Assembly (NCBI GenBank): GCA_903922535.1
Contig: CAIXUF010001457.1
Span: forward strand, 1 to 14,614
Source of the DNA: Candidatus Hydrogenedentota bacterium
GTDB taxonomy: Bacteria > Hydrogenedentota > Hydrogenedentia > Hydrogenedentiales > CAITNO01
Direction of reading: 5' to 3'
Length of the DNA: 14,614 nt
Every line of letters begins with the position of its first letter. Within the stretch, counting starts at the first letter, position 1. The translations under genes were made by a program, and so were the position numbers. A model generated the notes under the pieces. The model searched no databases. It was not told the DNA's origin and saw only the letters and a list, made by a program, of their open reading frames with translations. Of this stretch, positions 1 to 13,576 are shown piece by piece.

Positions 1-329
1 GGACAGTGTCCCGTCGATACCACCAGGTCCACAGTGCTGCCAAAGGGCACCTGCTGACCCGCCGCCGGGCTCTGGCTGATGACCCGGCCTTCCGCCACGG
101 TGTCGCTGCATTGTTGCGTCACCACACCGGTGCTCAGGTTTGCGCCGCTGAGCAAGATGCCGGCCACCGCCTGCGTCTCACCCGCCACGGCGGGCACCGT
201 CACAGGACAGTGTCCCGTCGATACCACCAGGTCCACGGTGCTGCCAAAGGGCACCTGCTGACCCGCCGCCGGGCTCTGGCTGATGACCCGGCCTTCTGCC
301 ACCGTGTCGCTGCACTGCTGCCTCACCAC
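1..329 (-). repeat. 204-bp direct tandem duplication of one PASTA unit
   Basis: Bases 1-125 match bases 205-329 with six differences, and only one of these falls in the first 92 bases. The offset of 204 is exactly 68 codons, one PASTA unit, so the frame is preserved. Divergence rises beyond this core (126-204 against 330-408). This points to a recent in-frame unit duplication or gene conversion. The true extent cannot be seen because the edge cuts it. Confidence 0.9.
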
Positions 330-605
330 GCCGACGGTCAGATTCGCGCTGCCGAGCAGGATGCCCGCCGCCTCCTGCGTCTCGCCCGCCACAGCGGGCA
401 CCGTTGCCGGGCAGGGACCCGTCGACAGGACCAGCGAGACAGCGCCGCCCAGCGGCGCCAACTGCTCTGCCGCCGGGTCTTGGCTGATGACCAGCCCCGC
501 CGCCACCGTGTTGCTGCACTGCTGCGTCACCGCACCGGTGGTCAGGCCGGCGGCGTGAATTGCCGTGTTCGCCGCTGTCAGGGCCTGGCCCGCCACATCG
601 GGCAC
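1..605 (-). repeat. PASTA block E, at least three units (residues 2421-2621, cut)
   Basis: Units begin at residues 2421, 2489 and 2557; the third is cut near its end by the window edge (last residues STGHC). Units 20 and 21 share an identical stretch of about 39 residues covering the middle and C-terminal parts. More units probably follow outside the window. Confidence 0.88.
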
Positions 606-3600
606 GGCGACGGACGCCTGAACGCACACACTGTCCAGCGCGAAGTCCAGGAGCGCATCCATGGCATTCGTATGGCTGACAAACGCCACGGTGTGCTGTC
701 CGCCGTCGGCAAAGGCGGAGAGATCCACCTCGATGCGGGTCCATGCGGAGAATGACGCGGCATCCGCCTCCGTCGCCTCGAACAGTTTCTGCCCGTCCAC
801 AAGAAGCCTCATGTATCCGGTGCTGCCCGCAACCGGAATCCACACGTAGAAGGACAGGCTGGCCGTTCCGGAGGGCAGCGTAATCTGCTGTGTGACGCTC
901 CCGTCCTCCGCGGCCTGCGAAGCGCCGAACAGCACGAACAAGTACCCTTCCTGCGCAAAATCAGGCAAATCTGTGCACAGCGGGGACTCGCGGTTTAGTG
1001 ATTGCATCTGCCATGCCCCGTTAGTCGATCCGTTTTCGAAGCTGCCGTCGGCGAGGATATTTCCCGGACAATAGTCCACGGACGGGATGGTCGCCAAGAC
1101 GGTGTAGTCCCCGGTTTCTCCGGCGTGACCGGCCACGCGCAGGAAATAGGCGGCACCCGCGGTCAGGCGCACGTCAACCTGTGACTGCAGACCGCAGGAG
1201 GAATCGTTGTTGTATCCAATTTGGGCCAGGGAACCGCAGTCACCTTCATAGACATGGAGCGTGGTGTCGAAGGAGGAACCGCACAGCGAAAATCTGTGGG
1301 TGGCGGTGCGGGATGCCTGGAATTGGAACCACACATCCGCCCCGGAACCGTCGTCCGTGACCAGGTCAGTCGCGGCGCCGACGGTGCTGTTCGAATAGGC
1401 CGTGTTCAACAGCAGCGTTGCGGCGGTGCCGCAGGTGTCATTCGCAGCGCCTCCGCAGGGTCCCGTGGAAATCACCAGCGCGACTGCGCTTTCCAGGTCT
1501 GCCGTCGCGCCCGCCGCCGGATCCTGGCTGATGACCAGGCCTGCCGCCACCGTGCCGCTGCATACCTCCGTGATTACGCCGATGGTCAGGTTCACCTCCG
1601 CGAATGCCGCCGTTGCGTCGGCTTGCGTCTGACCTACCACGTCGGGCACGGTTGTTTTGCAGGGCTCTCCGTTCGACACGACCAGCGCCACCGTGCTGCC
1701 GGGAAGAATCTGGCCGCCCGCCGCCGGGTCCTGGCCGATGACCAGGCCCGCCGCCGCCGTGCCATTGCAGGCCTGCGTGATTGTGCCGACAGTCAGTCCT
1801 GCACCCGTGATTGCCGCCGATGCATCCGCCTGTGTCTGGCCTGTCACGTCGGGCACGCTCACAGGGCAGGGTCCGGACACCACCGTCAGCGCCACCGCGC
1901 TGCCGGAGGGCGCGTCTGTGCCTGCCGCCGGGTCCTGGCTGATGACCAGCCCCGCCGCCACCGTGTCGCTGCAAACCTCCGTAATCGTGCCGATACTCAG
2001 GTTCGCACCCGTGATCGCCGCCGATGCATCCGACTGCGTCTGGCCTGTCACATCGGGCACGGTCTGGCAGCTTCCGGCCGCCACCAAGAGTGCCACCGCG
2101 CTGCCCGAAGGCACGCGTGCAGTTGCCGCAGGATTCTGGCTGACAACCAAACCGGCCGCCACCGTGTCGCTGCAAACCTGTGTGGTCGTGCCGACAGTCA
2201 GGTTCGCATTCGCAACCGCCGCGGATGCATCCGCCTGCGTCTGGTTCGTCACGTTGGGAACAGGAACCAGTGATGCGACGGAGTGAATGCACACATCATC
2301 AAGCAGGAAGTACAGGGGGGCGGAAGCCACCTCGTCCGTGTGGCTGGTGAACTCGACGGTATGCAACCCACCGCCGACAAAGGCAGATATGTCAATTTCC
2401 ACGCGGGTCCACGACGCATACTTTGCGGCGTCCGCGTTGGTCGCCTCAAAAACTTGTTGACTGTCCACCAGGAGTCTCATGTATCCCGGGGTGCCCGACT
2501 GGTAGATCCACAAATAGAATGACAGGCTGGTCGACTCGGCGGGCAGGACAAGCTCCTGCGAAATACTTCCATCTTCCGCAACATCCTCGCCGCCAAACAG
2601 ACAGAGCCAGTCTCCCTCATACGCAAAGCCCGCCCCCTTGGTCAACGGCGAATCGTAGTTCAGGGAGTACTCCTTCCATGCCGTGCTCGGCGAGCCTTCT
2701 TCAAATCCGCCGTCGGCGACCACATTTCCCGGACAGAAACCGGGCAGGAGGGTTGCAAGCAGCGTGTATTCGCCGTTTGCTCCGGCTTTCCCGGCCACGC
2801 GCAGGAAACAGGTCGAGCCCGCCGTCAAATACACCAGCGCCAGGGACTGGAGACCGCAGGAATTGTCGTCGTATCCAATCTGGGTCAGGGACCCGCAGGA
2901 ACCGGAATAGATGTAGAGGGTGGTGTCGAAAGCAGCGTCGCAGAGCGAGAACTCGTAGTTGCCTGCGGCGGTTGCGTCAAACCGGAACCACACATCCGCC
3001 CCTGACCTGTCATTCGTGACAAGGTCGGTGGCGGCGCCTGCATTGGTTCCTGAATAGGGCGTGTCCAGCAGCAGGGTCGCGGCAGTATCGCAGGTCTCAT
3101 TCACGATGATTGGGCAGATACCCGTGGACACCACCAGCGCCACCGCGCTGCCTGGAGGCGCCTGCGCGCCCGCCGCCGGATTCTGGCTGATGACCAGGCC
3201 CGCCGTAACCGTATTGCTGCACTGCTGCGTCACTGTGCCGGTGGTCAGGCCCGCGTCGCCAAGCAGGGTGCCTGCCGCCGACTCGGTCTCACCCGCCACG
3301 TTGGGCACGGTCACCGGGCATGGCCCCTCGGACAACACCAGCGCCACCGCGCTGCCGGGAGCAACCTGTGTGCCCGCCGCCGGGTCTTGGCTGAGAACGA
3401 GGCCCTCTGCAACCGTGTCGCTGCACTGCAGTGACACTGCGCCGGTGATGAGGCCGTCATTCGTGAGCAGGGTGTCCGCCTCCGCCTCCGTCTGGCCCGT
3501 CACATTGGGCACGGGCACATTGCAGAGGTCACCGTTGGACACCACCAGCGCCACTGTGCTGCCGGGAAGCGCCTGCGCGCCCGCCGCCGGGTCCTGGCTG

Positions 3601-6600
3601 ATGACGAAGCCCGCCTCCACCGTGTCACTGCACGCCTGCGTGATCGTGCCGGCAGCAAGGGTTGCGTTCGTGATCGTCGCCGCTGCATTCGCCTGCGCCT
3701 GGCCCGTGACATCGGGCACCGCCACGCAGTCTTCTGCCGACACCACGAGGGCCACCGCGCTGCCCGAAGGCACGAGCGCGTTTGCCGCCGGAATCTGGCT
3801 GATTACCAGACCCGGCGCCACCGTGCCGCTGCACACCTGCGTGATCGTGCCGACAGTCAGGCCTGAATCCGTGACCGCCGTCGAAGCATCGGCCTGCGTC
3901 TGGCCGGTTGCGCCGGGAACCGGGGTCATTTGGGTGACGGAGTGCACGCACACATCGTCCAGGAAGAAGTGCAACGGTGCGACAGACACCGGGTCCGTAT
4001 GGCCGGTGACCGAAAGGGTATGCATCCCGTCATCGGCAAAGGCGGAAACATCAACCTCCACTCGGGTCCATGACGCAAACTTTGCGGCATCCGATTGGGT
4101 CGCCTCAAAGACTCCCAGGCCGTCCACAAGGAGTCTCAGGTATCCCGTGGTGCCCGACTCGGGTATCCGAAGATAGAACGACAGGCTGATCGCATCGGGG
4201 GGCAGGTGGATCTCCTGCGAAACGCTGCTGTCTTCCTCGCCGGCATCACCGCCGAAAACGCAAAGCCAGTTTCCCTCATAGGCGGAATCCGGCATTTCCC
4301 GCAGCGGGGAACCGTAGTTCACGGAGGTCTCCTGCCATGCCGTACTCGGCGTGCCTTCCTCAAACCCGCCATCGGCAAGCATGTTTCCAGGACAGAAGCC
4401 GGACAAAAGGGTGGCCAACAGCGTATAGGCACCCGCCGCACCGTTGTTTCCGGCCACGCGCAGGAAACAGGTCGAGCCCGCCGTCAGATACGCCAGCGCC
4501 ACGGACTGGACATAGCTGCTATTGTCGTTGTATCCGACCTGGACGAGGGAACCGCAGGAACCGGAATAGACGTAGAGGGTGGTGTCAAAACCAGAACCGA
4601 AAAGTGAAAACTCGTAATTGCCGGTGGCGGCGGCATCAAACCTGAACCACACATCCGCTTCTGAACCGTCACTCGTAACAAGGTCGGTGGCCGCGTCAAC
4701 GCTGCTTCCCGCATACGGCGTATTCAGCAGCAGCGTCGCGGCAGCATCGCAGGTGTCGTTTGTAAGAACCGTACACCGGCCGGAGGACACGACGAGCGCC
4801 ACCGGGGTGCCGGGGACAAACTGGCCGCCTGCGGCCGGGTCCTGGCTGATGACCCGGCCCGCCGCCACTGCATCACTGCACACCTGCGTGACCGTGCCGA
4901 CCGTCATTTGTCCTCCCTCGAGTGCCGCCGATGCATCCTCCAGCGTCATGCCTTCCACGTCGGGCACGAGCACGGGACACGGGCCGGATGATACCGTCAG
5001 CGCCACGGCACTGCCCGCAGGCACCCCTGAGCCCATCGGGCTCTGTCCTGGAGACTGGCTGATGACCATGCCCTGCGGCCAGCTAGCACCGCATTCCTCC
5101 GTGATTATGCCGACCGTCAGGTTTACCGCGGTGAGCGCCGCCTCTGCATCCTCCTGAGACATCTGTGTTACATCAGGCACGGGCACGCAGCTTCCAGCGG
5201 CCACCTGAAGCGCCACAACGGTGCCCGCCTGCACGCGCGCACCGGCCACCAGGCTCTGCCCGATAATCGTGCCCGTCGGCACCCCCGTGTCACCGCAAAC
5301 TGGTGTTACCACGCCCACGACGAAGCCTGCGCCGATGAGCGACGCCGAAGCATCCGTCTGCGTCTGGCCGATCACGCTGGGAACCGGGACCAGTGATGCG
5401 AGGGACTGGATGCACACGGCATCCAGGACAAAGAGCAGGGGGTCGGATGACACCTCGTCTGTATGGCTGGAGAACTCAAGGGTATGTCCTTTGCCGTCGG
5501 CAAAGGCGGAGAGGTCGATTTCAACGCGGGTCCAGTCCGCATACGCTGCGTCATCCGCCTCGGTCGCCTCGAAGAGTTCTTGGCTGTCAACGAGGACTTT
5601 CATGTACCCCGGAGTGCCTGCGGAGAAAATCCACAAATAGAACGACAGTTGGACCGAGTCGGCAGGCAGGGTGATCTCCTGCGAAATGCTTCCGTCTTCC
5701 GAGGGGCCGTTGCCGCCAAAGAGGCAGACCCAGTTGCCCTCATAGGAGTATTGCGACCCGACCTTGGCCAACGGCGTGTCATAGTTCAAAGAGTACTCCT
5801 GCCATGCCGTGCTCGGCGAGCCTTCCTCAAACCCGCCGTCGGCAACCACATTTCCCGGACAGAAACCGGGCAGGACCGTCGCCAGCAGCGTGTAGTTGCC
5901 GGTCGCTCCGGCCTTTCCGGCCACGCGCAGGAAACAGGTCGAGCCCGCCGTCAAATACACCACGGCAAGGGACTGGAGACCGCAGGAATTGTCGTTGTAT
6001 CCAATCTGGGCAAGCGAAGCGCAGGAACCGGAATAGATGTAGAGGGTGGTGTCGAAAGCAGCGTCGCAGAGTGAGAACTCATAGTTGCCGGCAGAGGCGG
6101 CGTCAAACTTGAACCACACATCCGCCCCCGAACCGTCACCCGTGACAAGGTCCGTGGCGGCGCCGACATTGCTTCCAGTATAGGGCGTGTTCAGCAGCAG
6201 CGTTGCGGCAGTGTCGCAAGTGTCGTTTGCAACGAGTATTGGGCATGGCCCCGTGGACACCACCAGCATCACCGCGCTGCCTGGAGTTAGTTGCGCGCCC
6301 GCCGTCGGGGTCTGGCTGATAACCAGGCCCACCGCCACGGTGTCGCTGCACTGCTGCGTCACCGTGCCGACAGTAAAGCCGGCGCTGCCGAGCAGGGTGC
6401 CCGCCGCCGACTCCGTCTCGCCCACCACATCGGGCACCGCCACTGTGCAAAGGCCCGTGGACACCGTCAGCGCCACCGCGCTGCCGGGAATAGCCTGTGT
6501 GCCTGCCGACGGGTCCTGGCTGATGACCGTGCCCGCCGCCACCGTGTCACTGCACTGCTGCGTGATCGTGCCGACAGTCAGGTTTGCACCCATTACTGCC

Positions 6601-7865
6601 GTGGACGCGTCCGCCTGCGTCTGGCCCGCCACGTCGGGCACGTCTACGCAGGCGGTAGGACTCGAGATTACCACCCTTACCCCGGTGCCATAAAGAACCT
6701 GTGTTCCTCCCGCCGGATCCTGGCTGATGACCGTGTTGGGAGGAGCCGGGCTGCACTGCGCGGTTGTTTGACCAGCATAAAGCCCCACCTGGGACAGCGC
6801 GGTGTTCACCGCATCAAGCAGCAGCCCATTCAAGTTGGGAACCGTTACGAGACAGCGGCCGGTCGACACTGCCAAAGCCACCGCACTGCCGGGAGGCGCT
6901 TGCGTGTTTGCTGCCGGATCCTGGCTGATGACCAGTCCCGCCGCCACGGTGTTGCTGCACTGCTGTGTCACCGTGCCGACCGTGAGGTTCGCAATTGTGA
7001 TGGATGTGGACGCATCCGCCTGCGTTTGGCCCGCCACATTGGGCACCGTCACCGGACAGGGTCCGGTGGACACGATCAGTTTCACCGGATTGCCGAACAG
7101 CGAGTCTGAGCCTGCTTCCGGGTCCTGGCTGATGACCAGACCCGCCGCCACCGTGTCGCTGCACTGCTGCCACACGATGCCGGTAACCAGGCCCGCACCG
7201 GTGAGCAGGGTATCTGCCGCCGCCTGCGTCTCACCCACCACATTGGGCACCTCCACCGGACAATACCCGCTGGACACCACCAGCGCCACCGCACTACCGG
7301 AGGCAACCGACGCCCCCGCTGCCGGGTCCTGGCTGATGACCCGGCCCGCCAGCACCGTGTTGCTGCAAACCTGCGTCACGGTGCCGGTGGTCAGTCCCGC
7401 GCCGATGAGCAGGGTGCCCGCCGACGACTGCGTCTCGCCCACCACGCCGGGCACAGACACCACCGGACAGGGCCCTGTGGACATGACCAGCGCCACCGCG
7501 CTGCCGGGAGGCGCATCGGTGCCTGCCGCCGGGTCCTGGCTGATGACCCGGCCCGGCGCCACCGTGTTGCTGCACTGCTGCGTCACGGTGCCGACCGTCA
7601 GGCCCACGCCGACGAGCAGGGTGTCCGCCGCCGACTGCGTCTCGCCCACCACATTGGGCACGGTTGCCATGGGTGCGGAAACCTTTACGGGCACGATGGT
7701 ACCCGCCGCGCTCAGTGATTTCTCCGGCACAGGCCCCGAAATCGGTCCTCCTGTCTCCCCCCCGGACACAGGGGAAAGGTTGCCGCCAAGAGCCGCCTGC
7801 GCGAAAAGCGCGAACAGCATCCCCGTCATCAGAATGCCCCGAAACCCAAAACCTTCCCTTGACAT
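1..7865 (-). CDS. Giant secreted PASTA/PPC/jelly-roll repeat protein, 3' end outside window
   Basis: One frame stays open for 2621 codons from ATG 7865 to the left edge. Frame phase was checked at the start of every repeat and module and never changes. The start is set by AGAAGGAG 7 bases upstream. Residues 1-27 look like a Sec signal peptide: basic start, hydrophobic core 11-22, small residues around 24-27. After a linker, PASTA-like units of about 68 residues begin at residue 69. In-window order is 7 PASTA, PPC plus jelly-roll module, 3 PASTA, module, 4 PASTA, module, 4 PASTA, module, 3 PASTA (last one cut). The typical unit reads VPDVTGQTQADAS, then VGTVTQQCSDTV, then ISQDPAAG, ending VVSTGPCP. 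No catalytic domain, transmembrane anchor or sorting signal is seen, but the C-terminus is missing. PASTA domains are known to bind peptidoglycan fragments in kinases and PBPs. Here adhesion, matrix or wall binding is only an inference. Confidence 0.93.
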   Translation of the reverse strand, partial: MSREGFGFRGILMTGMLFALFAQAALGGNLSPVSGGETGGPISGPVPEKSLSAAGTIVPVKVSAPMATVPNVVGETQSAADTLLVGVGLTVGTVTQQCSNTVAPGRVISQDPAAGTDAPPGSAVALVMSTGPCPVVSVPGVVGETQSSAGTLLIGAGLTTGTVTQVCSNTVLAGRVISQDPAAGASVASGSAVALVVSSGYCPVEVPNVVGETQAAADTLLTGAGLVTGIVWQQCSDTVAAGLVISQDPEAGSDSLFGNPVKLIVSTGPCPVTVPNVAGQTQADASTSITIANLTVGTVTQQCSNTVAAGLVISQDPAANTQAPPGSAVALAVSTGRCLVTVPNLNGLLLDAVNTALSQVGLYAGQTTAQCSPAPPNTVISQDPAGGTQVLYGTGVRVVISSPTACVDVPDVAGQTQADASTAVMGANLTVGTITQQCSDTVAAGTVISQDPSAGTQAIPGSAVALTVSTGLCTVAVPDVVGETESAAGTLLGSAGFTVGTVTQQCSDTVAVGLVISQTPTAGAQLTPGSAVMLVVSTGPCPILVANDTCDTAATLLLNTPYTGSNVGAATDLVTGDGSGADVWFKFDAASAGNYEFSLCDAAFDTTLYIYSGSCASLAQIGYNDNSCGLQSLAVVYLTAGSTCFLRVAGKAGATGNYTLLATVLPGFCPGNVVADGGFEEGSPSTAWQEYSLNYDTPLAKVGSQYSYEGNWVCLFGGNGPSEDGSISQEITLPADSVQLSFYLWIFSAGTPGYMKVLVDSQELFEATEADDAAYADWTRVEIDLSAFADGKGHTLEFSSHTDEVSSDPLLFVLDAVCIQSLASLVPVPSVIGQTQTDASASLIGAGFVVGVVTPVCGDTGVPTGTIIGQSLVAGARVQAGTVVALQVAAGSCVPVPDVTQMSQEDAEAALTAVNLTVGIITEECGASWPQGMVISQSPGQSPMGSGVPAGSAVALTVSSGPCPVLVPDVEGMTLEDASAALEGGQMTVGTVTQVCSDAVAAGRVISQDPAAGGQFVPGTPVALVVSSGRCTVLTNDTCDAAATLLLNTPYAGSSVDAATDLVTSDGSEADVWFRFDAAATGNYEFSLFGSGFDTTLYVYSGSCGSLVQVGYNDNSSYVQSVALAYLTAGSTCFLRVAGNNGAAGAYTLLATLLSGFCPGNMLADGGFEEGTPSTAWQETSVNYGSPLREMPDSAYEGNWLCVFGGDAGEEDSSVSQEIHLPPDAISLSFYLRIPESGTTGYLRLLVDGLGVFEATQSDAAKFASWTRVEVDVSAFADDGMHTLSVTGHTDPVSVAPLHFFLDDVCVHSVTQMTPVPGATGQTQADASTAVTDSGLTVGTITQVCSGTVAPGLVISQIPAANALVPSGSAVALVVSAEDCVAVPDVTGQAQANAAATITNATLAAGTITQACSDTVEAGFVISQDPAAGAQALPGSTVALVVSNGDLCNVPVPNVTGQTEAEADTLLTNDGLITGAVSLQCSDTVAEGLVLSQDPAAGTQVAPGSAVALVLSEGPCPVTVPNVAGETESAAGTLLGDAGLTTGTVTQQCSNTVTAGLVISQNPAAGAQAPPGSAVALVVSTGICPIIVNETCDTAATLLLDTPYSGTNAGAATDLVTNDRSGADVWFRFDATAAGNYEFSLCDAAFDTTLYIYSGSCGSLTQIGYDDNSCGLQSLALVYLTAGSTCFLRVAGKAGANGEYTLLATLLPGFCPGNVVADGGFEEGSPSTAWKEYSLNYDSPLTKGAGFAYEGDWLCLFGGEDVAEDGSISQELVLPAESTSLSFYLWIYQSGTPGYMRLLVDSQQVFEATNADAAKYASWTRVEIDISAFVGGGLHTVEFTSHTDEVASAPLYFLLDDVCIHSVASLVPVPNVTNQTQADASAAVANANLTVGTTTQVCSDTVAAGLVVSQNPAATARVPSGSAVALLVAAGSCQTVPDVTGQTQSDASAAITGANLSIGTITEVCSDTVAAGLVISQDPAAGTDAPSGSAVALTVVSGPCPVSVPDVTGQTQADASAAITGAGLTVGTITQACNGTAAAGLVIGQDPAAGGQILPGSTVALVVSNGEPCKTTVPDVVGQTQADATAAFAEVNLTIGVITEVCSGTVAAGLVISQDPAAGATADLESAVALVISTGPCGGAANDTCGTAATLLLNTAYSNSTVGAATDLVTDDGSGADVWFQFQASRTATHRFSLCGSSFDTTLHVYEGDCGSLAQIGYNNDSSCGLQSQVDVRLTAGAAYFLRVAGHAGETGDYTVLATIPSVDYCPGNILADGSFENGSTNGAWQMQSLNRESPLCTDLPDFAQEGYLFVLFGASQAAEDGSVTQQITLPSGTASLSFYVWIPVAGSTGYMRLLVDGQKLFEATEADAASFSAWTRIEVDLSAFADGGQHTVAFVSHTNAMDALLDFALDSVCVQASVAVPDVAGQALTAANTAIHAAGLTTGAVTQQCSNTVAAGLVISQDPAAEQLAPLGGAVSLVLSTGPCPATVPAVAGETQEAAGILLGSANLTVGVVRQQCSDTVAEGRVISQSPAAGQQVPFGSTVDLVVSTGHCPVTVPAVAGETQAVAGILLSGANLSTGVVTQQCSDTVAEGRVISQSPAAGQQVPFGSTVDLVVSTGHC
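606..1442 (-). repeat. PPC-like plus jelly-roll-like module 4 (residues 2142-2420)
   Basis: The most divergent of the four modules. It starts NDTCGTAATLLLNTAY, has GADVWFQFQASRTATHRFS and YNNDSSCGLQS, and the junction is DYCPGN rather than GFCPGN. The second domain (2265-2420) begins ILADGSFENG and ends LDSVCVQ. It is therefore probably the oldest copy or one under different constraint. Confidence 0.78.
1443..2261 (-). repeat. PASTA block D, four units (residues 1869-2141)
   Basis: Units begin at residues 1869, 1936, 2004 and 2073. These are the most uniform units, all with the QTQADAS or QTQSDAS helix start. Unit 18 ends GPCGGAANDTC and leads straight into module 4. Two cysteines are present in each unit. 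Confidence 0.87.
2262..3101 (-). repeat. PPC-like plus jelly-roll-like module 3 (residues 1589-1868)
   Basis: Begins NETCDTAATLLLDTPY. The PPC-like part spans 1589-1709 and the second domain 1710-1868, with FCPGNVVADGGFEEG and LDDVC. The stretch at about 2790-2970 is nearly the same DNA as about 5910-6090 in module 1, including synonymous positions, so the two copies are recent duplicates or have been homogenised. Confidence 0.8.
3102..3920 (-). repeat. PASTA block C, four units (residues 1316-1588)
   Basis: Units begin at residues 1316, 1383, 1452 and 1520. The last of the block resembles the last unit of block A: both use a GETESAAGTLLG start and run from GPCPI or GICPI into the next N(D/E)TC module. 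This indicates that duplication units spanned PASTA and PPC domains together. Confidence 0.86.
3921..4760 (-). repeat. PPC-like plus jelly-roll-like module 2 (residues 1036-1315)
   Basis: The PPC-like part (1036-1156) begins NDTCDAAATLLLNTPY and has ADVWFRFDAAATGNYEFS. It differs from modules 1 and 3 by FGSGFD in place of CDAAFD and by NDNSSYVQS in place of NDNSCGLQS, so it lacks two of the module cysteines at once, which suggests those two form a disulphide in the other copies. The second domain (1157-1315) begins FCPGNMLADGGFEEG and ends LDDVCVHS. Confidence 0.8.
4761..5384 (-). repeat. PASTA block B, three units (residues 828-1035)
   Basis: Units begin at residues 828, 896 and 967. The first two are the most degenerate after unit 5: unit 8 has IIGQSLVAG where others have ISQDPAAG, and unit 9 has ECGASWPQG and a small insertion SPGQSPMGSG. 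Both cysteines are nevertheless kept in all three. Confidence 0.85.
5385..6227 (-). repeat. PPC-like plus jelly-roll-like module 1 (residues 547-827)
   Basis: Residues 547-667 begin NDTCDTAATLLLNTPY and carry GADVWFKFDAASAGNYEFS, FDTTLYIYSG, NDNSCGLQS and TCFLRVAG, the pattern of bacterial pre-peptidase C-terminal (PPC) beta-sandwich domains. FCPGN joins this to a second domain (about 670-820) with ADGGFEEG, a central Ser-Gln-Glu segment, SFYLWI, LVDSQELFEAT, VEIDLSAFADG and a final LDAVC. That looks like a carbohydrate-binding or MAM-like jelly roll. PPC is confident; the jelly-roll label is inferred from beta-rich pattern only. Closely related at DNA level to module 3. Confidence 0.8.
6228..7661 (-). 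repeat. PASTA block A, seven units (residues 69-546)
   Basis: Units begin at residues 69, 138, 206, 274, 342, 409 and 477, a spacing of 67-69 residues. Unit 5 (from residue 342, VPNLNGLLLDAV) is the most divergent: its middle reads AQCSPAPPNTVISQDPAGG and it ends SSPTAC instead of STGPC. All seven keep one cysteine in the middle and one at the end. This is the longest block and lies directly behind the signal peptide and linker. Confidence 0.88.
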
Positions 7866-7872
7866 ACCGCAA

Positions 7873-7880
7873 CTCCTTCT
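7873..7880 (-). promoter_or_regulatory. Ribosome binding site of the giant PASTA gene
   Basis: Reads AGAAGGAG on the minus strand, 7 bases before ATG 7865. It decides the start, since it precedes a good signal peptide. Confidence 0.85.
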
Positions 7881-7942: not shown

Positions 7943-7971
7943 AGTATATTTCTGTGTTGTTGTTGGGTCAA
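7943..7971 (-). promoter_or_regulatory. Sigma70-type promoter of the giant PASTA gene
   Basis: On the minus strand, TTGACC (7966-7971) and TATACT (7943-7948) are 17 bases apart; each matches 5 of 6 consensus bases. Transcription would start near 7936, giving a leader of about 70 bases before ATG 7865. Confidence 0.7.
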
Positions 7972-8561: not shown

Positions 8562-9872
8562 CTACTTCTTCCCGATGCAGTACAGATGCGTGGCGGTGCG
8601 CAGGAAAAGCTGGTTGTTTGACACCGCGAACGAGGACAGCGTCTTGGACTCGTCCAGCTTGTTGGTGGCCAGCACCTTGAACTCGGGCCCCGCCGAGACC
8701 ACGAAAGTCACCGCCTCCTCATTGGTGAAGTAGATGCGCCCGCCCGCCAGCAGCGGGGACGCGCTGACAATGCCCTCGCCCGCGCGTTCCGGCCCCCAGA
8801 CGGGGGTGCCCGTCTTTATGTCCACACAGGTGACACGCGTGCCGTCATCCACCATGTAGAGGTGCTTGCCGTCGCAAATGGGCGTGGGCACGTCGGGCGA
8901 GCCGAGCTTGTCCCACACCCACGCCGTGTGCGTCTCGGTGACATCGCCCGTGCCGTCCGCGCGGATGGCCAGCAGCGGCTTCACGCGCGAGGACGCAAAG
9001 ACCATGCCGTCGCCGACGGCGACGGTCGGGATGATCCGGTTGTACTGGCCGTGCCTTGGGTTGAGTCCCCAAGCCCGCCAGATCTCCCGGCCCGTGTCCG
9101 CATCGTGCCCTGTGACGCAGTCGCCGCCGGACAGGATAATCTGCGTCTTGCCGTTGACCTGAAGGAACGTGGGCGTGTTGTACGTGTCCGGCCCCTCGAC
9201 CACGGCCGTGGTGGGCCGCTCGATGCGCCAGCGCACCTCACCGGTCAGCCCGTCAAACGCCACCATGTAGCAGGGATCTTTCGTGAAAAAGCCATGCTGC
9301 ACCGCAATAATCACATTTCCGCCGTACAGCACCGGCGACGACGCATAGCCGAACTGCATGCCGAACTTGCCGTACATCTGCTGGATGTCTTTCTTCCACA
9401 GCTCCTTGCCGTCCATGTCCATCCCGGTCAAAATGCCCGACCCCGTAATAGTCCACAGATGCGTTCCGTCGGTCACCGGCGTGGGGGAGGTCATGTTCTG
9501 CTTGTTGCCCAGCTTGTTGCCCTCGGCCAACTCGTGCTCCCAGAGCACCTTGCCGTCGGCCTTGGCGATGCACAGCAGCAGCAGCTTCGCCCCGCCGGTT
9601 TCCCGCTCCTCCTTGGTGTCCCCCGGTTTGGACGGCGACATGAGGTAGACCTTGTCGCCCCAGACGATGGGCGAACCGCCGCTCCACGAAGGCAGCGCGG
9701 TTTTCCAGACGATGTTCTCCGTTTCGCTCCATGTCAGCGGCGGGTCTGCCGTTGTTGCAATGTTGTTCTGGTCCGGGCCGCGCCACTGCGGCCAGTTCTC
9801 CTGCGCCGAAGCCGGCACCGCCAGCACTGCCGCCGCCAATGTCACCAACACGCCAATGACTCTCCAGAACAT
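8562..9872 (-). CDS. Secreted PQQ-binding-like beta-propeller repeat protein
   Basis: 436 residues. The start at 9872 is preferred over the upstream ATG at 9935 because AGGAG lies 6 bases before it and the protein then opens with a clean signal peptide (residues 1-23, core VIGVLVTLAAAVLAV, cut after ASA). The mature protein begins QENWPQWRGP, a hallmark of a PQQ-like (BamB/YncE-type) propeller family common in Planctomycetes and relatives. Blade motifs repeat along the chain: GGSPIVWGDKVYL, ADGKVLWEHEL, PTPVTDGTHLWTI, DGKELWKK, SSPVLYGGNVIIA, LTGEVRWR, DADTGREIWRA, PTPICDGKHLYMV, IKTGTPVWGP, SASPLLAGGRIYF. No catalytic residues are evident; such proteins usually act as periplasmic scaffolds or have unknown function. 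Encoded downstream of the C39-like peptidase on the same strand with a 91-base gap, but with its own -10 element. Last blade intact, ends YCIGKK. Confidence 0.9.
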   Translation of the reverse strand: MFWRVIGVLVTLAAAVLAVPASAQENWPQWRGPDQNNIATTADPPLTWSETENIVWKTALPSWSGGSPIVWGDKVYLMSPSKPGDTKEERETGGAKLLLLCIAKADGKVLWEHELAEGNKLGNKQNMTSPTPVTDGTHLWTITGSGILTGMDMDGKELWKKDIQQMYGKFGMQFGYASSPVLYGGNVIIAVQHGFFTKDPCYMVAFDGLTGEVRWRIERPTTAVVEGPDTYNTPTFLQVNGKTQIILSGGDCVTGHDADTGREIWRAWGLNPRHGQYNRIIPTVAVGDGMVFASSRVKPLLAIRADGTGDVTETHTAWVWDKLGSPDVPTPICDGKHLYMVDDGTRVTCVDIKTGTPVWGPERAGEGIVSASPLLAGGRIYFTNEEAVTFVVSAGPEFKVLATNKLDESKTLSSFAVSNNQLFLRTATHLYCIGKK

Positions 9873-9878
9873 TGCTCT

Positions 9879-9883
9879 CTCCT
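9879..9883 (-). promoter_or_regulatory. Ribosome binding site of the PQQ-propeller gene
   Basis: AGGAG on the minus strand with 6-base spacing to ATG 9872. It favours this start over the ATG 21 codons upstream, which would bury the signal peptide. Confidence 0.75.
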
Positions 9884-9921
9884 GTTTGCCGCCCGCTTGT
9901 TGCATCCGCAAAAACTGCGCG

Positions 9922-9927
9922 ATTATA
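9922..9927 (-). promoter_or_regulatory. Consensus -10 element upstream of the PQQ-propeller gene
   Basis: A perfect TATAAT on the minus strand, 50 bases before ATG 9872 and within the 91-base gap after the peptidase gene. The -35 position (about 9945-9950, GGCAAC) is poor, so the promoter is probable rather than certain. It implies the propeller gene can be transcribed apart from the peptidase gene. Confidence 0.45.
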
Positions 9928-9963
9928 CCGATCATACCCCCTGCGTTGCCCCTTTGGGCCGCG

Positions 9964-10740
9964 CTACTTCAGCGCCATCAGAAACCCCGTGTATTCATAG
10001 GCGTGCCGGAACTCGTCCAACCGCAGTCTCTTGTGGCCGGACAGGGGGTCCACGCAGTCCACTGTTTCGCCGTCGCAGCCCAGCAGGGCTAGAAAGTGAC
10101 CCGCCACACCCGCGCCAAGTTTCACGCCGATGATGCCGCGCTTGCCTTTCAGTCCTTCCAGCGTTCCGTGCTCGAAGTGCGCCTCCAGCCCTTTTTCCCT
10201 GGCGTGGCGGGCCAGATACCACACTTCCGTGCCGCTGGCGGTGGTCAGGCTGTTCCGGGCGACGTCGCGTTCGGATTCCTTTTTTCCGGCCAGGCTCAGA
10301 AAGGTCGCCAGACAGGCCGGACCGCAGGTGTGGCCCGTGCTCTGCAGGCAGTACGGCCCGTCCCAGCGTTCCTGTAGGGGCTTCGTGTCAAGCGGGGCGA
10401 AGACGTTCTTCACATACGGCAGCATGGACAGCACCGCCATGGACGGAACCAGCACAGCGACCAGCAGCCTTAGGTTGCGCCGGTGCATCTCCCGCACCAC
10501 GATGCCGGTTCCCAAGCCCAACAGCCCACTGGAAAGCTCGATGCATGGAATGGAGCGGAAGCTGTAATACAGCGGAAGATCATCCACAAGATGGAGGTAA
10601 TACAGGCCGACAAGCCCCGTGGGCAGGCAGGAAAGCGCCAGCAACTCCCACCGAAGCTTTCCGGGAAGCGCCGGCAGCAGCGTCCCGGCGAGAAAAGTGC
10701 ACAGATAGATTCCCAAGAGGGTGGTGGCCAGTATGTCCAT
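9964..10740 (-). CDS. Membrane-anchored C39-like cysteine peptidase
   Basis: 258 residues from ATG 10740. A longer frame reaches 10866 but would overlap the divergent URO-D gene start and adds no recognisable sequence. The ribosome binding site is weak, so a GTG one codon upstream is also possible. Residues 1-110 are hydrophobic with about four likely membrane segments (about 4-24, 33-52, 68-82, 91-110). Residues 128-258 form a papain-like C39 domain: QSTGHTCGPAC gives the oxyanion Gln133 and candidate nucleophile Cys139, GHFLALLG gives His215, and VDPLSG gives Asp231. C39 domains normally cleave double-glycine leaders, and often sit on ABC exporters. Here no transporter domains exist and none are encoded nearby, so the substrate is unknown. 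It might process an exported protein or be a stand-alone maturation or defence peptidase; both are guesses. Confidence 0.8.
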   Translation of the reverse strand: MDILATTLLGIYLCTFLAGTLLPALPGKLRWELLALSCLPTGLVGLYYLHLVDDLPLYYSFRSIPCIELSSGLLGLGTGIVVREMHRRNLRLLVAVLVPSMAVLSMLPYVKNVFAPLDTKPLQERWDGPYCLQSTGHTCGPACLATFLSLAGKKESERDVARNSLTTASGTEVWYLARHAREKGLEAHFEHGTLEGLKGKRGIIGVKLGAGVAGHFLALLGCDGETVDCVDPLSGHKRLRLDEFRHAYEYTGFLMALK

Positions 10741-10835
10741 CACGTTTGTCCCATGCTCCAAGGCCCAAATTTGGTGTAGTATACCGATGGCACAACCGCA
10801 ATCCCAGACCCGGGCAACCGACAGGAACGCAGACC
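10741..10835. promoter_or_regulatory. Divergent promoter region with a 10-bp palindrome
   Basis: These 95 bases separate the start codons of the C39-like peptidase (minus) and the URO-D gene (plus). CCAAATTTGG at 10765-10774 is a perfect palindrome and a possible operator. On the minus strand TATACT (10778-10783) matches 5 of 6 -10 bases; on the plus strand TAGTAT or TATACC overlaps it. No good -35 is visible for either side. Positions 10823-10827 (AGGAA) are the likely ribosome binding site of the URO-D gene, 8 bases before its ATG. Confidence 0.4.
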
Positions 10836-11927
10836 ATGACCTCACGCGAAAGAACCCTGGCCGCACTGCGGCGCCAACCGGCCAACCGGGTGCCCGTGTT
10901 CATGTGGTTTCATCCGTCCACGGCCCAGCGGCTTGCGGCACTGATGGAGATCCCCGTGGACCGCGTGGGCGAGGCCATGGGCAACGACATCCGCCAGACC
11001 TGGGTGAACAACAATTACGCCATGGAGGGAATCGTCCACGACAACGAGGGGGACGCGCACACCGATGAATGGGGCGTGCACTGGGTCAAGCGCGGCGAGT
11101 TCAACCAGATCGAGGGATTTCCCCTCGCGGGGCTCGCGCCGGAGGAGGTGCTGCGCTACCGCTTTCCCGCGGAACACATGGAATTCCTAATGCAGCGCAT
11201 GGCGCCCGTGCTGGAAAACCGGGGCGATGATTTCATCGGCGTCGATGTGTCGCCCTGCGTGTTCGAGATGTACTGGCGGCTGCGCGGCATGGAGGACGCC
11301 ATGCTCGACATGGCCGTAAACTGCGCCATGGCCGACACCATGTTCGCCCGCTGCGCCGACTTCTCGGTCATGCTCTCGGTGGCCGCCTGCGAGCGCTTCG
11401 ACGTGGACTGGCTCTGGACGGGAGACGATGTCGCAGGCCAGCAGGCGCTCATGATGAGCCCGGCGCTTTGGCGCGAACTCGTCAAGCCCCATCTCGCGCG
11501 CATCGTGGACGTCGGGCTCCGCCGCGGCCTGCCCGTGGCCCACCACTGCTGCGGCGCACTGCGCGACATCATCCCCGACCTCATCGAAATCGGCATCACC
11601 ATCCTCAACCCGGTCCAGTGCAACTGCCCCGGCATGGACCCGCTCGACCTCAAGCGCGAATTTGGGCGGCAACTCAGCTTCATGGGCGGGGTGGACACGC
11701 AGGGTGTGCTGCCCAACGGCTCGGCCGACGATGTGCGCCGCGCCACCGAACGGCTTGTCGGGGGCATGACGGCGGACGGCGGCGGCTATATCCTTGCCGC
11801 ATCGCACACCATCCCCCCCGAGACACCGGACGAGAACATCTTCGTGCTGTATGAGGCGGCCGGCATCCCCCGCCAGGAAATCTTCGACAACGCCGCCGCG
11901 ATCCGCGCTGTGGCTAAGCGGATATAG
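10836..11927 (+). CDS. Uroporphyrinogen decarboxylase (URO-D) family protein, methyltransferase-like
   Basis: 363 residues, the usual length for this family. The start at 10836 is supported by AGGAA 8 bases upstream and the family-typical opening MTSRERTLAALRRQPANRVP. The frame stays open upstream, but that part overlaps the divergent peptidase and is rejected. A TIM-barrel URO-D domain covers almost the whole chain. Late motifs are AHHCCGALRDIIPDLIEIG, NPVQC, GGVDTQGVLPNGSADDV and GGYILAASHTIPPETPDENI. His237-x-Cys239 matches the HxC part of the zinc site of MtaA/MtbA-type corrinoid-dependent methyltransferases; Cys262 or Cys264 are possible third ligands, although the classical distal cysteine position appears to be alanine or serine. 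It is therefore unlikely to be HemE of haem synthesis. A methyl transfer or demethylation role is inferred from the family, with no corrinoid protein encoded nearby to support it. Confidence 0.85.
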   Translation: MTSRERTLAALRRQPANRVPVFMWFHPSTAQRLAALMEIPVDRVGEAMGNDIRQTWVNNNYAMEGIVHDNEGDAHTDEWGVHWVKRGEFNQIEGFPLAGLAPEEVLRYRFPAEHMEFLMQRMAPVLENRGDDFIGVDVSPCVFEMYWRLRGMEDAMLDMAVNCAMADTMFARCADFSVMLSVAACERFDVDWLWTGDDVAGQQALMMSPALWRELVKPHLARIVDVGLRRGLPVAHHCCGALRDIIPDLIEIGITILNPVQCNCPGMDPLDLKREFGRQLSFMGGVDTQGVLPNGSADDVRRATERLVGGMTADGGGYILAASHTIPPETPDENIFVLYEAAGIPRQEIFDNAAAIRAVAKRI

Positions 11928-12067: not shown

Positions 12068-13576
12068 TTATGCCGCGTTCAGCGCAACGTAACGGGAGGA
12101 TTGTCCGTCCTGCACCAACAGCAGCGCCGCCTGATCCTTCGGCCCCTTCTGTATGGCGTCCTCGAATTCACGCGGATTGTTCACCGCCTGGCGGTTCACT
12201 TCCTTGATCAGCATCCCCGGTTTGATTCCGGCGCGTGCCGCCTGGGAGCCCGGTGTCACCTCTGAAACCACCACGCCGCTCTCGCCCTCGTAGCCCATGC
12301 GCCTGGCCAGGTCGTCGCTCAGGCCCTGCACGGTGATGCCCAGCTTTGTCCGCGGCTCCTGTTTCCCGTTTCCGCCGGCCTTGGCCATTTTGTCGCCGGG
12401 CAGGGTGCCCACCTCAACGGTCTTCTCCATGCGGTTTCCGCCCCGCACGATGGCCAGTTTCAAAGACGTGCCCGGGGCTGTGGTGGAGATATGGCTGCGG
12501 AACGCGCCAATCTCGCCCACAGGCTGGCCGTCCAGTTCCACAATCACGTCATCACGCTGCAGGCCCGCCTTTTCCGCCGGCGAGTCCTTGCTCACGTCGG
12601 CAATCAGCACGCCGTGGCCGTCGGTCAGTTTGAACCACTTGGCGATTTCAGGCGTGACGCCCTGGATGTTGACCCCCAGGAACCCCCGCGTGATGCTGCC
12701 ATGGTCGCGCAACTGTGCCACAATGTACTTCATCATGTTGGCCGGTATGGCGAAGCCGACCCCGTTGCTGCCGCCGGTGCGGCTCATGATCGCCGTGTTC
12801 ATGCCGACCACGTCACCGTCCATGTCGAGCAGCGGCCCGCCCGAGTTGCCCGGGTTGATGGACGCGTCCGTCTGGATGAAGTCGGCGTAGTCAACGATGT
12901 TCACGTCGCCGCGTCCCCGCGCGCTCACGATGCCCGAGGTCACCGAGTGCTTCAGGCCGAAGGGGCTGCCGATGGCGAGCACCCATTCACCCACGCGCAC
13001 CTTGTCGGAGTCGCCCAGCTTGAGCGTGGGCAGGCCCTTCGCGTCCACCTTGATCAGCGCGATCTCCGTTTCCGGGTCCGAGCCGATCAGCTTGGCGTCA
13101 AAGCTGCGGCCGTCTTCAAGGGTTACTTTCAGGCCGTCCGCGTCGCCCGCCACATGGTGGTTCGTCACGATGTAGCCGTCTTCCGAGATGATGAACCCAG
13201 AACCCTCGCCCACGGGAACAGGCGTTGATTCCGGCTCCTCCATGTGGGGCATGCCCCGGCGGCCGCCCATCGGCGGGCCGCCAAAGAAACGCTGGAAAAG
13301 ATCGTCGGGGCTCAGGGGCGACCCGTCCGACTCTTCATACACCATGGGGCCGCCCCTCATGTTCTTTTCCACCCGGATGTTCACCACCGCCGGTGACGTG
13401 TCGTTGACGACCTGTTCAAAGGCGTCGCTCAGCGCTTTCACCACCGAGAGCGACTCGGGCGTGGCGGCAGCGGTGGCTGCTTTGGGTTGGACCCCAATTA
13501 GGGTCATTGCAGCAACAAGGGTTATGGCTATGCCGCATAGCGTTACCCATGCGGACCGCTTTCTCAACGTGCTCAT
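12068..13576 (-). CDS. htrA: Periplasmic HtrA/DegP-type serine protease, two PDZ domains
   Basis: 502 residues, a normal length for Do-type proteases. The start at 13576 has AAAGGAAT with about 8-base spacing and opens a signal peptide (basic MSTLRKR, hydrophobic core 11-29, likely cut near residues 32-38, ATAAA). Residues about 50-290 are the trypsin-like domain: TNHHVAG gives His141, NPGNSGGPLL gives Ser245, and the acidic triad position falls in DPETEIALIKV, where most relatives have Asp but this protein has Glu171. An acidic Gly-Met-Pro-rich insert (about 75-118, with FQRFFGG) corresponds to the LA loop. PDZ1 spans about 297-393 (RGFLGVNIQ, DSPAEKAGLQRDDVI) and PDZ2 about 411-500 (LGITVQGLS, GSQAARAGIKPGMLI). 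It should degrade or hold misfolded envelope proteins. Transcribed alone; no convincing sigma70 promoter was found in its upstream region. DegP, DegQ and other Do homologues cannot be separated here. Confidence 0.93.
   Translation of the reverse strand: MSTLRKRSAWVTLCGIAITLVAAMTLIGVQPKAATAAATPESLSVVKALSDAFEQVVNDTSPAVVNIRVEKNMRGGPMVYEESDGSPLSPDDLFQRFFGGPPMGGRRGMPHMEEPESTPVPVGEGSGFIISEDGYIVTNHHVAGDADGLKVTLEDGRSFDAKLIGSDPETEIALIKVDAKGLPTLKLGDSDKVRVGEWVLAIGSPFGLKHSVTSGIVSARGRGDVNIVDYADFIQTDASINPGNSGGPLLDMDGDVVGMNTAIMSRTGGSNGVGFAIPANMMKYIVAQLRDHGSITRGFLGVNIQGVTPEIAKWFKLTDGHGVLIADVSKDSPAEKAGLQRDDVIVELDGQPVGEIGAFRSHISTTAPGTSLKLAIVRGGNRMEKTVEVGTLPGDKMAKAGGNGKQEPRTKLGITVQGLSDDLARRMGYEGESGVVVSEVTPGSQAARAGIKPGMLIKEVNRQAVNNPREFEDAIQKGPKDQAALLLVQDGQSSRYVALNAA

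Follow-up and report, generated by a model that had tools for sequence, protein, structure and literature searches.

We analysed a contig of 14,614 nucleotides from a Candidatus Hydrogenedentota bacterium (GCA_903922535.1, CAIXUF010001457.1; this whole stretch is called the window), whose minus strand carries an open reading frame (ORF) for a giant protein made of PASTA units and four interspersed modules (positions 3..7865). We regard this window protein as a fairly likely case of a surface-anchored adhesive stalk, in line with the original prediction of a huge exported stalk or adhesin that uses PASTA as its bulk building block.

The frame runs from an ATG at 7865 to the window edge at position 3 without a stop, giving the predicted 2,621 codons with the C terminus beyond the window. 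The ATG is preceded by a ribosome-binding-site-like AGAAGGAG (7873..7880, minus strand, read directly from the sequence), and the protein begins with MSREGFGFRGILMTGMLFALFAQAALGG, which by eye resembles a signal peptide (residues 1-27; 7785..7865, minus). The G+C content at the three codon positions is 0.64/0.54/0.77; the third position is the richest, which also holds for the four neighbouring genes that were measured. The present sequence contains no internal stop or frameshift, and both PASTA and PPC-type matches were obtained.

Searching the whole protein with the Pfam PASTA model (PF03793) yielded E 3.5e-281 and 908 bits against a gathering score of 23.2, spread over 21 stretches. A hidden Markov model (HMM) built from the window's own units returned 21 PASTA units in blocks of 7, 3, 4, 4 and 3, which reproduces the order 7-3-4-4-3+ that had been read from the sequence. 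On the minus strand, block 1 comprises seven units with two cysteines each (residues 69-543; 6237..7661), found with Pfam and with the own-unit HMM, which also placed block 2 with three units (residues 828-1033; 4767..5384), block 3 with four (residues 1316-1586; 3108..3920), block 4 with four (residues 1869-2138; 1452..2261) and block 5 with three visible units (residues 2421-2621; 3..605). The last of these, the 21st, is incomplete and interrupted by the window edge; the homologue P0123, described below, has nine units here. A first structure model of a PASTA-module-PASTA segment, built with four sequences and of low overall confidence, had the PrkC PASTA structures 3py9 and 3m9g among its fold matches. 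Since long module stretches in this model had a predicted local distance difference test (pLDDT) score below 50, its fold matches were used for PASTA only.

The identity of a PASTA Ser/Thr kinase (PknB/Stk1) was rejected, as the kinase family is absent from the Pfam matches of the 2,621-residue part; neither a kinase nor a penicillin-binding protein (PBP) domain was found among them at E 0.01. With 971 bits, the window protein passes the cut-off of 450 of the NCBIfam equivalog NF033483 (PknB_PASTA_kin); the best stretch covers model positions 363-563 of 563, and P0123 also exceeds the cut-off. Because the cut-off is passed despite the kinase domain not being found, automatic annotation could label the protein a Ser/Thr kinase.

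All 21 PASTA units contain exactly two cysteines: one lies close to QQC, following the first strand, and the other close to GPC, following the last strand. In P0123, 11 of the 12 full units also have two. When 1,763 units of the window protein and its relatives are aligned, the cysteines fall mostly into two columns, occupied in 211 and 201 units, with 21 in the next column. Where both places could be read (1,684 units), 190 units have both cysteines, 20 and 18 have one or the other, and 1,456 have none; in a few units one cysteine sits instead in a loop column. Counted over the 1,749 units of at least 55 residues from 123 proteins, 1,483 units hold no cysteine, 41 one, 216 two and nine three. 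After removal of the window protein and P0123, the numbers with 0/1/2/3 cysteines are 1482/41/184/9, compared with 1331/338/43/4 under a Poisson distribution, where units within one protein are not independent of each other. At least one two-cysteine unit occurs in 30 of the 123 proteins, and 93 have none. Four two-cysteine units are flanked by cysteine-free units only, which argues for pairing within the unit. Judged from these sequence statistics, each PASTA unit is probably closed by one internal disulphide.

The four spacers between the PASTA blocks repeat a single module of about 285 residues; modules 2, 3 and 4 are 65, 79 and 59% identical to module 1. Module 1 (residues 544-826; 5388..6236, minus) was assigned from a predicted model and fold comparison, and comparison between modules delimits module 2 (residues 1034-1315; 3921..4766), module 3 (residues 1587-1868; 2262..3107) and module 4 (residues 2139-2420; 606..1451) on the same strand. 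The module model, built with 28 sequences, is confident (pLDDT 93.1), and this prediction shows each module as a PPC/collagen-binding-type domain followed by a CBM/MAM-type jelly roll, as had been proposed for the four spacers. The per-domain fold reading depends on a second aligner rather than on Foldseek, whose top rows for this model were enteropeptidase entries with low TM-scores, rejected as identities. By fold, the second half belongs to the CBM/MAM/choice-of-anchor-J type of jelly roll. Membership of the first half in the PPC/collagen-binding type is backed by a profile over its cut-off: PF23759, which matches the same half as PPC, reaches 50.1 for the whole protein against a cut-off of 27. 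The Pfam PPC model itself stays just under (25.1 against 25.9 bits, no stretch significant singly).

Relatives were taken from a survey of 194 retrieved proteins, for which the best 120 of 184 whole-protein matches were used. The search with module 1 gave 20 proteins, and the full PPC plus jelly-roll module is joined to PASTA in three of the 194 (P0123, P0030 and P0122). Among these three, P0123 is the only one with PASTA on both sides of the module. This protein of 1,223 residues (JGI source, contig of 9,993 bases) is cut at its N terminus and reads three full PASTA units, the module, nine PASTA units, an EF-hand-like stretch and the end GCAGCSGGKSAFTHGQMLELLGNLFVGGLGLMVLSVFAKRRL, a tail with the plan GCxGC, G[DN]LF, hydrophobic stretch and basic residues. 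Compared with the window protein, its module shares 81% identity with module 4 and 53-56% with modules 1-3. The probable missing end of the window protein, extrapolated from this homologue, is thus that of P0123: nine PASTA units, an EF-hand-like pair and the tail. If so, the complete protein would be about 3,140 residues long and contain 27 PASTA units.

The modules of P0030 and P0122 are 40-46% identical to those of the window protein, and two frames of genome G014 (L071 and L051) have the order module, PASTA, tail. Among the loci examined, 30 frames contain a module part and eight of them also PASTA, most frames being only partly covered. In loci that cover part of a frame, PPC-type halves alternate with PASTA units (L096 in G019, L092 in G020) or a PASTA block is followed by a jelly-roll half (L079 in G001). 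As module parts are mixed with PASTA in several frames, the window protein represents an extreme of a local mixing habit. A scan of genome contigs with the whole protein gave 17 pattern matches and no relatives, and in a plasmid collection 17 records matched, each over less than 80% of the query; most of them bear the annotation PASTA kinase or PASTA protein.

The tail of P0123 recurs in many Hydrogenedentota. We seeded a tail alignment from 12 relatives, all of them PASTA proteins; among these 12 seeds, the first cysteine is absent from one tail and the terminal RR pair from four, and the hydrophobic stretch was judged by eye. The tail is present in 14 of the 194 retrieved proteins, and all 14 carry PASTA, a figure biased by the seeding. 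At E 0.001, it matched in 25 of 68 Hydrogenedentota genomes, with most copies in G002 (26), G009 (21), G011 (16) and G001 (15); the same search found none in 119 genomes of another phylum (that of G005), the Hydrogenedentota scan serving as positive control. Located by the tail alone, 24 tail-bearing frames, partly chosen for long frames, were inspected (15 of 15 in G001, 5 of 21 in G009, 4 of 26 in G002). In 23 of them the tail ends at most one residue from the stop, and the remaining frame meets a contig edge, so that in relatives the tail occurs many times per genome and precisely at the C terminus. PASTA is present in 23 of the 24 frames, with the last unit 0-93 residues ahead of the tail; the gap holds an EF-hand-like stretch in 14 frames (recognised by eye) and is at most 25 residues long in nine. 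Pfam EF hands were found in at least two of ten frames scanned, where for three frames the best 25 families were considered. The parts N-terminal to PASTA differ and include WD40 repeats, a trypsin-like protease, a right-handed beta helix and short CxxCH-bearing parts. With varied heads in front and the tail at the end, the PASTA arrays of these genomes resemble stalks that link a head to a C-terminal anchor.

Several tail proteins of G001 and G002 (L133, L149) carry an early, haem-site-like CxxCH (CTLCH or CLLCH) before PASTA and tail; their motifs suggest that these CxxCH proteins could be cytochromes displayed at the surface on PASTA stalks.

Scanned against Pfam at E 1, four tails gave no match; five tails scanned against NCBIfam gave none apart from a single row at chance level. 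The MYXO-CTERM model TIGR03901 gave no match in five genomes, where no positive control responded either, and none for five tails in hmmscan. In the literature searched, we found no work joining 'C-terminal sorting signal' with hydrogenedent*; a 2024 myxosortase study on cysteine-containing signals might still describe the tail. Of all the parts, the tail has the best chance of being new. On balance, we lean towards the idea that part of the Hydrogenedentota uses an uncatalogued cysteine-containing C-terminal sorting signal (GCxGC ... GDLFLxGL ... RR, in many cases preceded by an EF-hand pair) that brings numerous proteins per genome to the cell surface, PASTA arrays being their standard stalk. 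The window protein would then be a stalk-only member with disulphide-locked units and matrix-binding modules along the rod.

Two CPBP-family membrane proteases, L062 (G001:C720) and L063 (G002:C438), are weakly myxosortase-like; the proteins most closely related to them come from G001, G002 and G009, all rich in tails. L062 matched the myxosortase models MrtJ (E 6.6e-10) and Mrt_core (E 1.2e-8), both below the cut-off. The CPBP family as a whole (PF02517) was discarded as a marker of the tail, being present in 67 of 68 genomes and therefore uninformative. An L062-type CPBP protease is an unproven, putative candidate for tail processing.

The course that we propose starts with export by the N-terminal signal peptide. 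The protein would then fold oxidatively, each PASTA unit being closed by its disulphide, and the units would pile end to end into stiff rods. Such a rod fits the linear PASTA arrays of PknB and PrkC described in the available text of the review PMC3601408. Along the stalk, the four PPC-type plus CBM-type modules would offer several sites for binding an extracellular ligand, most probably a polysaccharide or a polymer of the matrix. The unseen C terminus would add further PASTA units, the EF-hand-like pair and the Cys motif, hydrophobic helix and basic tail, and a membrane enzyme may process this tail, leaving the protein anchored on the cell surface.

Several points weigh against this reading. 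The EF-hand matches of P0123, from which the missing end is modelled, are below the Pfam cut-offs. The disulphide is deduced from pairing statistics, counts of repeats are not independent of one another, and P0123 has one cysteine-free unit among its 12 full ones. Ligand binding is a proposal, and a shared fold shows no function. The gene is not seen at the corresponding place in the nearest genomes, where the G001 contig stops and G009 has other genes beside HtrA. Of the 25 genomes with the tail, 11 have a relative of the protease L062, as do 5 of the 43 without it, an association (Fisher p 0.006, ignoring kinship) that is a lead only, and Mrt_core does not discriminate, matching 41 of 68 genomes with none over the cut-off.

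The chief rival to the stalk is wall binding by PASTA: as a peptidoglycan tether, the PASTA blocks would bind wall muropeptides, and the protein would fix outer layers to the wall or sense wall fragments. PASTA-containing regions of PknB and PrkC do bind muropeptides, yet according to the same available part of PMC3601408 just one of the three PrkC PASTA domains binds, and muropeptide binding is not intrinsic to PASTA. The missing kinase and PBP domains at E 0.01 and the spacer-like position of the PASTA arrays in relatives, between varied N-terminal parts and the tail, also speak against a tether, which we consider unlikely. Somewhat less probable still is a freely secreted multi-domain protein, a matrix component or scaffold without anchor that differs from P0123 past the window edge. 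The C terminus does lie outside the window, many distant multi-PASTA proteins end otherwise, for example in PASTA (by eye), and the tail is confined to the 14 of 194 retrieved proteins; however, P0123, so similar at module 4, has the tail, and the two nearest genomes hold 21 and 15 copies.

The last two PASTA units (3-401, minus) are the closest pair of all 21, with 90% DNA identity, and lie right where the window ends; here the repeats may have broken the assembly. A break or collapse of this kind would make the length partly an assembly effect of near-identical repeats, with a different true unit number. We find this very improbable, as the remaining unit pairs are at most 81% identical (median 66%, ungapped DNA comparison) and P0123 keeps the same order around module 4.

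Discussion of PASTA domains mostly concerns their role as wall sensors on kinases and PBPs, and the original prediction had called their use here unusual. This did not hold up: at least ten PASTA units were counted in 88 of the 194 retrieved proteins (maximum 40), and PASTA matches occur in 67 of 68 Hydrogenedentota genomes, with the per-genome counts of 76 being lower bounds. Nor was the fear borne out that gene predictors miss such genes, since P0123 and many of the listed matches are predicted proteins, several of them annotated 'beta-lactam-binding protein with PASTA domain'. Giant multi-PASTA proteins are thus common among those retrieved; distinctive here are the cysteine pair per unit, a feature beyond the original prediction, the probable missing end seen in P0123 and the occurrence of its tail across Hydrogenedentota genomes. 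Like the window protein, other giant PASTA proteins, some of them assigned to Planctomycetota, Sedimentisphaerales or Hydrogenedentes, exceed 1,000 residues and often have tens of units, whereas most lack the two-cysteine unit and, among those retrieved, the full module joined to PASTA is restricted to the three proteins named above. P0030, P0122, L071 and L051 share the module, PASTA and the same kind of C terminus, but have one full module with PASTA (1-4 units) only behind it, and P0030 and P0122 additionally contain a trypsin-like domain. L096, L092 and L079 resemble the window protein in placing module halves among PASTA and differ in having half modules only, within partial frames. The PASTA kinases (PknB, PrkC/Stk1) share the PASTA sequence match and the linear arrays; the window protein has far more units and interleaved modules, and a kinase domain was not found in it. 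To our knowledge, the PASTA units of PknB and PrkC/Stk1 have no cysteine pair.

The relatives' tail follows the same plan as MYXO-CTERM, with a Cys motif (GCGC-like in several), a hydrophobic segment, a mostly basic end and many copies per genome. It differs in the conserved G[DN]LF stretch, the frequent EF-hand pair just ahead, the phylum and the lack of an NCBIfam match. In the accessible part of PMC11980579, MYXO-CTERM consists of an invariant-cysteine motif, a transmembrane helix and an Arg-rich end and is processed by the CPBP protease myxosortase. The disulfides treated in the available part of PMC3601408 belong to PknH. Our literature searches found nothing linking the PASTA domain with Hydrogenedentes or with 'giant protein', and the texts on hydrogenedent* that mention 'pasta' are, in their accessible parts, unrelated to PASTA proteins. 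Here PASTA seems to serve a little-studied phylum as an all-purpose stalk on the surface, and a cystine variant would suit the oxidising exterior. The tail offers a handle that predicts surface proteins of these bacteria and raises the question of the processing protease or sortase.

Upstream of the giant ORF and on the same strand lie genes for a BamB-like PQQ-propeller protein (8562-9935) and a DegP/HtrA protease (12068-13576). This HtrA is 87% identical to that of G009 and 82% to that of G001, the next of the matches listed from the 68 Hydrogenedentota genomes being at 61%, which makes a Hydrogenedentota origin of the window the most likely one. In G001, HtrA, the URO-D gene and the start of the PQQ gene follow in the same order until the contig ends; in G009, the corresponding side of HtrA holds no window genes within the stretch compared. 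A C39-type peptidase gene with a weak FapD-like match (9964-10740, minus; the ATG at 10740 is probably its true start) seemingly has no counterpart at this position in G001; there, the preceding stretch runs directly into the PQQ gene, so this difference appears to be an insertion or loss. The URO-D-type (corrinoid methyltransferase-like) protein (10545-11927, plus) is 90% identical to G001 from residue 66; its listed start is probably too far upstream, with the true start near 10836. A promoter-like pair, TTGACC-17-TATACT (7943..7971, minus), is a consensus match with no evidence of function; two such pairs occur in the kilobase, compared with 0.2 expected.
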